From a virus, in IMG/VR virus record IMGVR_UViG_3300047557_003866, positions 1-21,803 of that record: DNA of 21,803 bases; one strand, written 5' to 3'. The number at the start of each line of letters is the position of its first letter. Within the stretch, counting starts at the first letter, position 1. Below are positions 3,017 through 5,629 of this stretch, piece after piece. The notes beneath the pieces are model-generated. The model did not search any database. It had not been told where the DNA came from and saw only the letters and a program-made list of their open reading frames with translations. Made by a program: the position numbers and the translations under genes.

Positions 3017-3250
3017 ATGGATCGCGATGTAGAAAATGCTTTTCATGCAGTAGTCGAGGCCGCATATGCCATGCAAGAAGCAGGAAAGCGATGGGGAAGA
3101 AGTAGTAAGGAGCTAGAACTTGCCAGCAAAGCCTACGAAAATTGCATGGCCGAATATTACGAGCTAACTGGCAAATCTCGTACTGAGCATTGGGACAAAT
3201 ATTGCAACGAAGATCCGTCCTGTCAAGAATGCAAGCAGTTTGATCTGTGA
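3017..3250 (+). CDS. small protein with C-terminal cysteine cluster (77 aa)
   Basis: The gene opens at ATG 3017 (MDRDVENAF), 27 bp after the previous gene. The product is acidic and helical, with a C-terminal CNEDPSCQECKQ segment holding three closely spaced cysteines that could bind a metal. Its stop TGA overlaps the next start by one base (TGATG at 3248-3252), so the two are probably translated together. No function can be named. Confidence 0.65.
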   Translation: MDRDVENAFHAVVEAAYAMQEAGKRWGRSSKELELASKAYENCMAEYYELTGKSRTEHWDKYCNEDPSCQECKQFDL

Positions 3251-3382: not shown

Positions 3383-3517
3383 ATGGAGCTTCGGCCGAAG
3401 CACCGTGGCCACGGTTTGCCCTTTCGCTCAGGGAAGGGCTTCAAGAAGGTATCCTCGTCAATGCCTTCTTCTGATTCCGTCAGGGATCAATGGAGCGAGG
3501 GAAGCGCTCCACGATGA
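3383..3517 (+). CDS. possible small basic protein (44 aa)
   Basis: An ATG at 3383 sits five bases after the previous stop and opens 44 codons (MELRPKHRGHGLPF at the start, a Ser-rich middle, ending SEGSAPR). The composition is basic and low in hydrophobic residues, so the protein would be disordered. It is supported only by tight spacing and strand. It could equally be a 3' untranslated stretch leading to the tRNA. Confidence 0.35.
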   Translation: MELRPKHRGHGLPFRSGKGFKKVSSSMPSSDSVRDQWSEGSAPR

Positions 3518-3582
3518 AGCAACAAGCAGAGCATGGGCCGCACCCATTGATTCCCTAATGCGGGAAGACTCTGCTTCTTCCA

Positions 3583-3658
3583 GCCCCTGTAGCCCAGTTG
3601 GTAGCAGGCAAGCGACTTAAAATCGCTAAAGGGGCAGGTTCGAATCCTGCCAGGGGCA
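3583..3658 (+). tRNA. tRNA with UAA anticodon (Leu, reads UUA), short variable loop
   Basis: Fold read by eye: acceptor GCCCCTG/CAGGGGC with discriminator A at 3658, a D-arm with GTTGGTAG loop, and an anticodon stem AGCGA/TCGCT closing the loop CTTAAAA. The anticodon is therefore TAA with U33 in place. The T-arm is GCAGG-TTCGAAT-CCTGC. CCA is not encoded. At 76 nt the gene has only a 6-nt variable loop (AAAGGG), whereas leucine tRNAs normally carry a long variable arm. The assignment to Leu rests on the anticodon alone. The tRNA lies just upstream of the riboswitch unit. Confidence 0.9.
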
Positions 3659-3676
3659 TTTGGTAAACTGAAGACA

Positions 3677-3728
3677 CGTTCACCCCGCGAGGGGCGCATG
3701 CAACCCACTCACGGAACGGGGAGTGGAA
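3677..3728 (+). promoter_or_regulatory. glutamine-II (downstream-peptide) type riboswitch candidate
   Basis: The element starts CGTTCA. A hairpin CCCC-GCGA-GGGG (3683-3694) follows, then CGCATGCAA. An H-type pseudoknot can form from two interleaved helices: CGTTC (3677-3681) with GAACG (3714-3718), and CCACTC (3705-3710) with GAGTGG (3721-3726). The order CGUUCA, hairpin, CGCA, C-rich strand, CGGAAC, G-rich strand matches what I know of the glutamine-binding downstream-peptide RNA of cyanobacteria and their phages. That class sits in front of very short ORFs, exactly as here. The last helix ends 6 nt before the GGAGG of the 33-codon ORF, so ligand binding would control ribosome access. The class assignment is from memory of the consensus. 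Confidence 0.7.
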
Positions 3729-3743
3729 CCATGGAGGAACGCC

Positions 3744-3845
3744 ATGAACCCTCTGCTACTTGTGAAGCAGCGCCTGCTTAAGGCTGCTCGTCTTCATCAG
3801 GCCCAGTTGGCTTCAATCAACGGCTATCGCTCTTGCGTTGCTTGA
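3744..3845 (+). CDS. 33-residue downstream peptide behind riboswitch
   Basis: The ATG at 3744 has the best Shine-Dalgarno sequence in this part of the window (GGAGG at 3733-3737, 6 nt before the start). The peptide starts MNPLLLVKQRLLKAARLH and ends NGYRSCVA. It is short, basic and amphipathic. A terminator follows 7 nt after the stop, so riboswitch, ORF and terminator form a self-contained transcription unit. In the downstream-peptide class the tiny protein is presumed to act in nitrogen or glutamine metabolism, but I do not recognise this sequence and assign no activity. Confidence 0.75.
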   Translation: MNPLLLVKQRLLKAARLHQAQLASINGYRSCVA

Positions 3846-4048
3846 TGACTACAGCCCGCTTCGGCGGGCTTTTCTTTGTCGTTCCAATGCCTGATCACAC
3901 CAGCCACGATAAAAGTATTTGTCGCCATATAAGACACTAATACAACTGTCCTAACCCAAGCAATTACATCAGCTTCAAGATTGTTTCTACCGACCTTCGG
4001 TCCGAGAGATTTTGACCATATCCTCCATAACTTTTGCCTCTTCCGCAT
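3824..4048 (-). CDS. possible small single-pass membrane protein (74 aa)
   Basis: An ATG at 4048 opens 74 codons with one clear hydrophobic segment (about residues 28-52, IAWVRTVVLVSYMATNTF onward) flanked by charged ends. Against it: it overlaps the preceding gene by 62 bp in another frame, no ribosome binding site is evident, and its last 17 codons read through the plus-strand terminator. A start at the internal ATG (MATNTF) would give a shorter membrane peptide. It is listed because of the membrane segment and position at the end of the operon. Confidence 0.3.
   Translation of the reverse strand: MRKRQKLWRIWSKSLGPKVGRNNLEADVIAWVRTVVLVSYMATNTFIVAGVIRHWNDKEKPAEAGCSHQATQER
3853..3880 (+). 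terminator. intrinsic terminator of the riboswitch-peptide unit
   Basis: The stem AGCCCGC (3853-3859) pairs with GCGGGCT (3864-3870) around a TTCG tetraloop, followed by TTTCTTTG. It ends the plus-strand run. A minus-strand reading frame runs through the stem. Confidence 0.9.
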
Positions 4049-4226
4049 GTATCCAAGCTTTTAGTTCGTGGAGATATTCTCTAATAAATGCTGCTTTCTG
4101 CAAATGCCAAGGATTGCCATCTCGCAAGAAAGCTGAATTGTGATGATCAACTGCTTGGAGCAGACGATGGATAATGGGATTCCATGGTTCGCGGATGGGC
4201 GTATTAAAAGTTCTACGCTCCTCCAT
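3987..4226 (-). CDS. small helical protein of unknown function (79 aa)
   Basis: I start it at ATG 4226 (MEERRTFNTPIREPW), which overlaps the end of the phosphoesterase gene by 14 bp, rather than at an upstream in-frame start deep inside that gene. The product is helical and rich in His, Trp and charged residues (IIHRLLQAVDHHNSAFL, then AFIREYLHELKAWIHAEE). Same operon as the phosphoesterase and HNH genes. No family recognised. Confidence 0.65.
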   Translation of the reverse strand: MEERRTFNTPIREPWNPIIHRLLQAVDHHNSAFLRDGNPWHLQKAAFIREYLHELKAWIHAEEAKVMEDMVKISRTEGR

Positions 4227-4740
4227 TGTCCGCAAAATATTGTTTGATCTCTTCAAATGGTACTGGAAAAAAGTTATGCTGCTCGACACAGGAATTGAAA
4301 TAATGCTTGTCAGGCTGTCCGTCTTTTAGAACCAAATGACAATGGAGATGGCCATGCACATTTCCCTTGTATCGCCCCTCAAAAGAATCACTATGGATGG
4401 GAATATGAGTGAAGATTAAGGAGTCACGAACGTGAGCACCACGAATGTCTTCAAAATATGGCAAATAATCAGATAGTTTATAAATGTCGTGATTGCCTTT
4501 GATGAGAATTTTTCGTCCATTGCAGCGCTCCAGCAGCTTTAGGCCGCGTCGAGGGATGGCAACATCGCCCAAATGGTAAATAGTATCTTTCGCATGCACT
4601 CGCTCATTCCATCGCTGCACCATAATCTCATCCATCTCTTCCATTGAAGAAAATGGACGCAACAACTCACCATCTGGCTTTAAAAAAGTGATGGCTTTGG
4701 CGTGGGAAAAATGAGTGTCGGAAGTAACAAAAAGACTCAT
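4213..4740 (-). CDS. calcineurin-like metallophosphoesterase
   Basis: This 175-residue protein carries the metallophosphoesterase ligand set in order: SDTHFSH (residues 7-13), HLGDVA (about 57-62), KGNHD (about 80-84), a FTHIPIH histidine block (about 110) and GNVHGHLH (about 126-133). These bind two metals and hydrolyse phosphomono- or diesters. Related small phage and bacterial enzymes act on cyclic or nucleotide phosphates. The actual substrate cannot be read here. The start overlaps the HNH stop by ATGA (4737-4740), so the two are coupled. Confidence 0.9.
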   Translation of the reverse strand: MSLFVTSDTHFSHAKAITFLKPDGELLRPFSSMEEMDEIMVQRWNERVHAKDTIYHLGDVAIPRRGLKLLERCNGRKILIKGNHDIYKLSDYLPYFEDIRGAHVRDSLIFTHIPIHSDSFEGRYKGNVHGHLHCHLVLKDGQPDKHYFNSCVEQHNFFPVPFEEIKQYFADNGGA

Positions 4741-5264
4741 CGGACCTGTTTTGCATACAACTCAAAAGCCTTTTTAATCGCCCATTCTCGACTTGATTTT
4801 TTCATTTTAATTCCAGTGTTGGACTGAGAAAAATGAAACGAAGTCATCTCTATAGATTTTTCAATGCAAGAGTTCAAAATTTCAAAATCAATACGTCCTT
4901 CCTCTTTCGTTACGCATTCAATAATTACATCTCGGAGGTGCCAGTAACGGCCTAGCCCAAGTCCACATAAGGGATTTTGCTGGCCTTTAATCCACCTAAA
5001 CATTTCTTGACCATCACTTACGTCTGGCGCTTCATCGTGACAGGAAGCGCATAACGGCACCAAATTATCGGCCTCGTCACTTCCTCCTAAAGACTTAGGG
5101 ATAATATGACATTTTTGCAGTGTACTAACATGACCGCAGCACCAACATCTTGTGCGTTCTTCTTCCCAATCTCCCCAATCAACGGCAATATCAAGCTCGC
5201 TTATATGTTGAGAATGATAATCCCAGCATTCTTTGACCCATTTCAATTCTTTTAGGCGAGCCAT
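4737..5264 (-). CDS. HNH endonuclease
   Basis: The HNH core is KCHIIPKSLGGSDEADNL-VPLCASCH (about residues 51-76), with a zinc-binding CWCCGH just before it (40-45) and C-A-S-C-H after it. The metal and catalytic His is in CHIIP. The C-terminal 100 residues are of unknown fold and rich in basic residues near the end. I use the ATG at 5264 (MARLKELKW). A GTG at 5285 in frame would add seven residues and is possible, as GGAGG lies between the two. Its start abuts a degenerate tRNA-like element, which fits a mobile homing-type nuclease. Confidence 0.85.
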   Translation of the reverse strand: MARLKELKWVKECWDYHSQHISELDIAVDWGDWEEERTRCWCCGHVSTLQKCHIIPKSLGGSDEADNLVPLCASCHDEAPDVSDGQEMFRWIKGQQNPLCGLGLGRYWHLRDVIIECVTKEEGRIDFEILNSCIEKSIEMTSFHFSQSNTGIKMKKSSREWAIKKAFELYAKQVR

Positions 5265-5313
5265 GGTAAACAGTGAAGCCTCCACAGCATACCAGGACCA
5301 AAGAAGATGTCAA

Positions 5314-5382
5314 GAGCGCTTCTAGGAATCGAACCTCAGTATTCTGGACTATCTGCCCAGCGTGTGCCAACACTTAAGCGCC
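5314..5382 (-). tRNA. degenerate tRNA-like element, function doubtful
   Basis: On the minus strand GGCGCTT pairs with AAGCGCT as a 7-bp acceptor (one G-U). A TTCGATT T-loop is present, and CTGGG/TCCAG closes a 7-nt loop CAGATAG. Against a working tRNA: there is no U33, the D-arm is reduced to GTG/CAC around TTGG, and the T-stem has a mismatch or bulge. The would-be anticodon is GAT. At 69 nt it looks like a decayed tRNA or a tRNA mimic. Confidence 0.35.
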
Positions 5383-5387
5383 AGTGG

Positions 5388-5485
5388 CCCCTCGGTTTGG
5401 GCATTATTGGTAACTAAGTGAGGATGCCTGCAAGCCTGTGCGCACAGTGTAAAGCCGTCCTCGTTACCAAGCTAAGCCTGAGGGG
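5388..5485. ncRNA. nested stem-loop element, strand unclear
   Basis: Four sets of complementary arms are nested in order: CCCCTC (5388-5393) with GAGGGG (5480-5485); TTGGTAAC (5407-5414) with GTTACCAA (5463-5470); GAGGA (5420-5424) with TCCTC (5458-5462); and CTGTG-CG-CACAG (5436-5447) at the tip. Such a long concentric fold is unlikely by chance and suggests a structured RNA of about 100 nt. The perfect arms do not reveal the transcribed strand. No terminator or known class was recognised. Confidence 0.45.
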
Positions 5486-5629
5486 GTGTTACGCAAACGC
5501 GGCGATCGGAAATTTCCAATCCTTGCGCTGCACTCTACCGACAGAGCAGCAGAGGATGATGGACCAAACGTGAAGCGATTAGACAAAGCTAAATGCTTCA
5601 GAGGCTTGGCCTCTATCAATGCAATCGTA
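5486..5629. other. non-coding stretch with hairpins downstream of the RNR small subunit
   Basis: No gene is seen between the nested element and the end of the RNR small-subunit gene. It contains a hairpin AGAGGC-TTG-GCCTCT (5600-5614), placed after the RNR stop on the minus strand and possibly acting in termination, though it lacks a long U run. A GCTGC/GCAGC stem on the minus strand (about 5525-5552) resembles a tRNA D-arm (GGTAGAG), but no T-arm accompanies it. Confidence 0.4.

Follow-up and report, generated by a model that had tools for sequence, protein, structure and literature searches.

A Glutamine-II riboswitch and its micropeptide gene form a predicted glutamine-controlled unit in a cyanophage clade

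Downstream of the terminase gene in the virus record IMGVR_UViG_3300047557_003866 lies what is very probably a self-contained phage unit made up of a promoter, a riboswitch of the Glutamine-II class, a ribosome binding site, a peptide of the phrog_545 family that may copy a host nitrogen-control peptide, and a terminator. We found a conserved RNA fold, conserved ligand contacts, an aptamer that strictly co-occurs with the peptide, and selection acting on the latter. The stretch analyzed here, referred to as the window, is the whole record of 21,803 bases, which may itself be a partial genome.

Results

The cassette runs in the order tRNA-Leu, extended -10 element, aptamer, GGAGG, 33-codon ORF and terminator. 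Its parts are listed below with the neighboring terminase gene.

1397-2776: terminase large subunit gene (terL), from the gene content of the window
3583-3658, plus strand: tRNA-Leu (anticodon TAA), predicted by ARAGORN; Rfam tRNA score 57.9 bits
3661-3669, plus strand: putative extended -10 element TGGTAAACT, directly upstream of the aptamer; conserved form TGNTANNNT among relatives
3674-3727, plus strand: Glutamine-II riboswitch aptamer; RF01704 match and covariation among relatives
3677-3681, plus strand: pseudoknot strand 1, CGTTC (C1-C5 in the crystal numbering), partner of GAACG at 3714-3718
3683-3694, plus strand: P1 hairpin CCCC-GCGA-GGGG, read from the sequence, with covariation at 3 of 4 pairs
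3695-3698, plus strand: linking strand C17, G18, C19, A20, with the ligand triple at G18 and the long-range pair C19:G41 (3719)
3705-3726, plus strand: P2 helix CCACTC (3705-3710) / GAGTGG (3721-3726), its loop containing pseudoknot strand 2 (3714-3718)
3733-3737, plus strand: Shine-Dalgarno sequence GGAGG, six bases past the last helix (P2)
3744-3845, plus strand: 33-residue peptide MNPLLLVKQRLLKAARLHQAQLASINGYRSCVA, with ATG at 3744 and a TGA stop; phrog_545 match, purifying selection and homologues
3853-3877, plus strand: intrinsic terminator, a 7-pair stem AGCCCGC-TTCG-GCGGGCT (3853-3870) followed by TTTCTTT

The class of the RNA was examined by searching the whole window against all Rfam families. 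The Glutamine-II family RF01704 scored 43.0 bits (E 1.3e-7) against a curated cut-off of 33 bits, and it was the sole above-threshold RNA match besides a tRNA. The glnA-type family RF01739 gave no match at E<=1 in a covariance search of window 3400-5600. An earlier note made from the letters alone had proposed a Glutamine-II, or downstream-peptide, riboswitch in which the CGTTC/GAACG and CCACTC/GAGTGG helices interlock around the CCCC-GCGA-GGGG hairpin, ahead of GGAGG and a 33-codon ORF with its own terminator, and had suggested a covariance search. All of these elements lie where the note had placed them, and the search upheld the proposed class. The sequence match thus confirms that the window RNA belongs to the Glutamine-II class, with L-glutamine as its predicted ligand.

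The window numbering of the aptamer was mapped from the crystal structure reported by Huang et al. 2019 (PMC6698751), so that A6 corresponds to position 3682, A33 to 3711 and G35-G42 to 3713-3720. The set of glutamine-contact bases C1, G2, G18, C19, C39, G40 and G41 is complete in the window, and the core bases A33 and G42 are likewise present (3677-3720).

We gathered 80 IMG/VR loci by terL similarity, which with the window and the isolate Synechococcus phage S-CBS4 made 82 sources. RF01704 by itself exceeded its cut-off in 15 of the 50 records searched, counting S-CBS4. A covariance model of our own, built from an alignment of 17 aptamers, marked 28 of the 82 sources, and an HMM of the first 24 peptide residues marked the identical 28, the window included. 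No source had just one of the two, and their position was just after terL. The loci in which neither was detected may be incomplete or may come from clades lacking the unit.

The 17 clade aptamers support the proposed fold. The structure was 98.9% paired compared with 83.4% after shuffling, and a slide of one base cut pairing to 54-61%. Two-sided changes were seen in 9 of 16 pairs, a number reached by 0 of 500 shuffles, although such counts are not probabilities because the related sequences are not independent. Five of the six P2 pairs showed two-sided changes, and the pseudoknot pair C5:G36 was C-G in seven aptamers, G-C in five and U-A in five. The A6.C17 contact, which is coplanar and unbonded in the crystal (PMC6698751), becomes G.U or A-U in relatives. 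G18, C19 and G41 are invariant and the ligand-contact bases are unchanged. Relatives with replacements at C5:G36 and A6.C17 (L094-L104), among them L096 with CGTTT and L094 with CGTTG, score near or slightly over the Rfam cut-off.

Such variation next to the pseudoknot might be expected if the RNA were an aptamer for another ligand or a relic that no longer switches. The changes are nevertheless compensatory or pair-like, they leave every ligand-contact base intact, and covariation is not expected of relics; in the window copy the core is canonical. We therefore hold this reading to be very unlikely, and we expect from their sequences that the natural compensatory pseudoknot variants retain glutamine binding.

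The peptide matched the phrog_545 profile at E 1.3e-6, with its residues 1-29 on profile positions 1-28 of 55. Among 13 distinct window-type ORFs of equal length, 81% of the single-base codon differences were synonymous, compared with 25% expected, and the start codon and Shine-Dalgarno sequence were preserved throughout. This codon bias indicates that the peptide is under purifying selection as a protein. Its homology reaches phages of quite different DNA; a cyanomyovirus phrog_545 member used as query found relatives in 377 phage records. The full-length members in T4-like cyanophages (e.g. syn9 gp198) share the N-terminal stretch and add a DUF4278-like tail, and a cyanomyovirus homologue matched DUF4278 (PF14105) at E 1.3e-4. 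DUF4278 is a domain associated with the glutamine riboswitches of hosts (PMC6316151). The window peptide itself had no Pfam match at E<=0.1, DUF4278 included, and profile searches of Pfam and NCBIfam gave no match to the glutamine synthetase inactivating factors IF7/IF17.

Since the unit is short and has its own promoter and terminator, the RNA rather than the peptide could be the functional product, with the ORF incidental. The host RNA Yfr6 (about 200 nt) was originally described as a non-coding RNA, and its 5' part is the downstream-peptide motif (PMC2864571). A Yfr6-like regulatory role fits poorly with the synonymous bias, with 13 distinct ORFs of one length that retain start codon and Shine-Dalgarno sequence, and with peptide homologues in otherwise very different phages. 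We judge it improbable and favor the reading in which the peptide is the product.

Glutamine aptamers were found to be very common in marine virus contigs (at least 120; L107-L226), and those contigs include aptamers followed by YRG micropeptides, for example MTVTYVYRGIAYTKIIK (17 aa) and MAQVTYRGVKYD...LTYRGVK. Comparable aptamer/micropeptide units occur in MAG contigs labelled Dehalococcoidia (L288), Porticoccaceae (L301) and Blastopirellula (L281), which are probably phage contigs.

The promoter was recognized by comparing relatives and not by a generic sigma-70 scan, which found none; no -35 element was identified before the aptamer. TGNTANNNT precedes the aptamer in every relative listed although the neighboring bases vary, and for this reason we read TGGTAAACT as a likely extended -10 element, with transcription predicted to start at about 3675-3677, in the opening bases of the aptamer. 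Among glutamine aptamers from marine viruses, 78 of 102 have TANNNT within 22 nt upstream versus 43 expected, with a peak 13-14 nt before C1. The tRNA-Leu(TAA) lies immediately upstream; the earlier note mentions neither it nor the -10 element. We rejected the tRNA as an integral part of the cassette because several relatives keep the cassette without a detectable tRNA. A tRNA-Ile (GAT) is predicted on the minus strand at 5314-5382.

The window encodes HNH endonucleases, both ribonucleotide reductase subunits, a phosphoesterase and a helicase in addition to TerL. Its closest isolate is S-CBS4, with 70% identity across half of the first 8 kb. In S-CBS4 (NC_016766) the same position after terL holds a tRNA, an RF01704 match of 44.9 bits and a 39-residue peptide, gp007; the riboswitch is absent from the annotated features of that record. 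The motif is common among Prochlorococcus and Synechococcus genomes, and the window could on that account be host DNA or a chimeric contig with no phage module. The genome of the isolate S-CBS4 already contradicts this: the cassette follows terL there and in 26 more virus contigs, and the locus L008 shares riboswitch, peptide and terL with the window. We give virtually no weight to a host origin of the stretch, and the phage setting of the riboswitch, which the earlier note had also claimed, is borne out by the virus record, the terL neighbor and the same cassette in the isolate.

Other features were noted near the cassette. A 77-residue ORF at 3017-3250 (plus strand), 330 bases upstream of the tRNA, has a weak match to CP12 (Pfam E 0.003, under the cut-off), a gene type known from cyanophages. 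The abiF RNA (RF03085) lies close to the cassette in the relatives L093 (188-224) and L096 (33-69), with 54.5 and 55.7 bits; S-CBS4 (L002 4650-4687) has a match of 34.3 bits, under the cut-off, and window 3400-5600 has none.

A genome scan with the aptamer pattern found matches mainly in Prochlorococcus, Synechococcus and Cyanobium. Directly downstream of Glutamine-II aptamers in Cyanobium/Synechococcaceae contigs are the 33-residue ORFs MNHLVLIRERILKAQRLHQAQLASVSNSRTAII and MNPLALIREQILKAERLRQAQLASVQNPKAEIF, the latter matching phrog_545 at E 3e-5. Given these host homologues, the window unit is best read, from its sequence, as the phage form of a glutamine-controlled micropeptide found in hosts. 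PirA was set aside as the host counterpart because marine picocyanobacteria lack it (PMC8092223).

Outside the window, we found two glutamine-aptamer halves upstream of phrog_545 in T4-like cyanophages. We parsed 54 distinct arrays from isolates and marine contigs, which have the order CGUUC1-hairpin-GACGCAAGUA-s-GGAACG1-linker-CGUUC2-hairpin-GACGCA-s'-GAA-GGAACG2. In 37 of the 54 the second hairpin exceeds 100 nt and has a complete ORF inside. This ORF belongs to the family phrog_504 (T4-GC_430); its AUG follows CGUUCAUCCC and its stop is just past GGGACGCA. Since the last codons are the aptamer core, the protein ends mostly in WDAND, WDAHD or WDAKAD. The arrays with the ORF can be located as follows.

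L003 1213-1448: nested array with phrog_504 ORF; also in L004, L006, L347-L351, L353, L355 and marine contigs, e.g. L110, L161 and L193

The hairpin arms flanking the ORF covary, with U7:A16 changed to C7:G16 (D to G in the protein) and other C-G to U-A swaps. They show 10 two-sided changes versus 3.8 in shuffles, none of 2000 being as high, in sequences that are related and non-independent. The strands s and s' (P3) also pair and covary, as AGUCG:CGACU, AGUCA:UGACU and GG-A-CGG:CCG-A-CC. In the minimum-energy folds of 17 uninterrupted arrays, the first CGUUC is predicted to pair with the last GAACG (5 of 5 pairs in 16 arrays, 3 of 5 in one), while in many of them GAACG1 and CGUUC2 form an inner hairpin. 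Because of this pairing in all 17 folds and the covariation of the P3 strands, a simple tandem reading is not favored.

Fourteen isolates with the ORF family were examined, and 10 of them have both 5' strands. The phages syn9, S-TIM54 and S-CAM1 (L005, L352, L354) have lost the first CGUUC strand and kept the other parts, and they represent a natural single-site version. In Bellamy the ORF is a distant relative and no part of the array is present. Rfam scores for the arrays checked were 25-29 bits, under the cut-offs, and the arrays may have gone unannotated for this reason. PMC2864571 mentions glnA RNAs in tandem; the papers we searched contained no report of nested glutamine aptamers or of a gene within an aptamer.

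Discussion

We propose that the aptamer would form the extreme 5' end of a transcript started from the extended -10 element. L-glutamine would stabilize the pseudoknot, and the stabilized pseudoknot would make GGAGG usable by the ribosome; the peptide would therefore be made when cellular glutamine is high, as expected of an ON switch. The crystal paper proposes that forming the pseudoknot frees the ribosome site, and the crystallized relative binds L-glutamine with micromolar affinity (PMC6698751). ON switching has been reported for a Prochlorococcus type-2 switch, and a review describes type-2 switches as activating upon glutamine (PMC6316151). With less confidence, we suggest that this phage-borne peptide copies a host micropeptide for nitrogen control and would bind a host nitrogen-assimilation protein. 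By sensing glutamine, the phage may thus achieve the direct nitrogen-status takeover that the earlier note had envisaged.

How the OFF state would form was also considered. A GAACG at 3737-3741, beside the Shine-Dalgarno sequence, is a potential partner for the pseudoknot strand CGUUC. As a conserved anti-Shine-Dalgarno decoy it was rejected: a match of this kind is no rarer than expected by chance (P 0.15), and relatives of the CGTTG class lack it. For these reasons we keep an OFF helix between CGUUC and GAACG as a possibility. The best predicted fold of the leader pairs different bases.

The window element shares its fold, ligand-contact bases and short downstream ORF with RF01704 of marine picocyanobacteria (type 2 glutamine). 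It differs in being phage-borne, in its position after terL and in a promoter abutting the aptamer, and in its phage relatives C5:G36 is replaced by U:A or G:C, and A6.C17 by G.U or A-U. The S-CBS4 cassette with gp007 occupies the same place and encodes a homologous peptide, although this peptide is longer and has a YRGVAY tail, and a tRNA-Thr replaces the tRNA-Leu. Glutamine riboswitches have already been reported in the phages Melnitz, Mosig, AG-345-P14 and S-CREM1 (PMC9004378, PMC9964418), each, as here, a glutamine aptamer on a marine phage. The window element thus adds one more to published examples from cyanophages and marine phages. Those of Melnitz (reported as glnA-like) and S-CREM1 (RF01739) are of the type-1 class, unlike the Glutamine-II element of the window, and the Melnitz switch is associated with ssrA and not with a micropeptide. 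Cyanobacterial DUF4278 proteins and IF17 (PMC6316151) resemble the window peptide as small proteins under glutamine control; whereas full-length phrog_545 members have the DUF4278-like end, the window peptide corresponds to the N-terminal helix part alone. With an Rfam match, a cassette in an isolate and a host counterpart, the element is solid rather than surprising.

We consider it likely that cyanophages have made the glutamine-riboswitch/micropeptide module into a viral nitrogen-sensor family, whose T4-like form is nested, in most arrays contains an ORF, and controls the downstream phrog_545. The window apparently represents the simple form of this family and the nested arrays its elaborated form in related viruses. 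In the nested form, the outer element would be a type-1 junction whose P3 arm holds a second, circularly permuted aptamer. Because the phrog_504 ORF lies inside the inner aptamer hairpin, its translation and the folding of the sensor would interfere mutually and so control the downstream phrog_545 gene. The T4-like relatives point to an RNA architecture in which a gene lies within a riboswitch aptamer, and of which we found no description. The natural compensatory pseudoknot variants can serve to test how the binding site has been modelled structurally, and the module is directly testable with S-CBS4, an isolate that infects Synechococcus CB0101. For this cyanophage clade, our findings describe a compact micropeptide gene, predicted to be under glutamine control, that mirrors a nitrogen-control module of the host.
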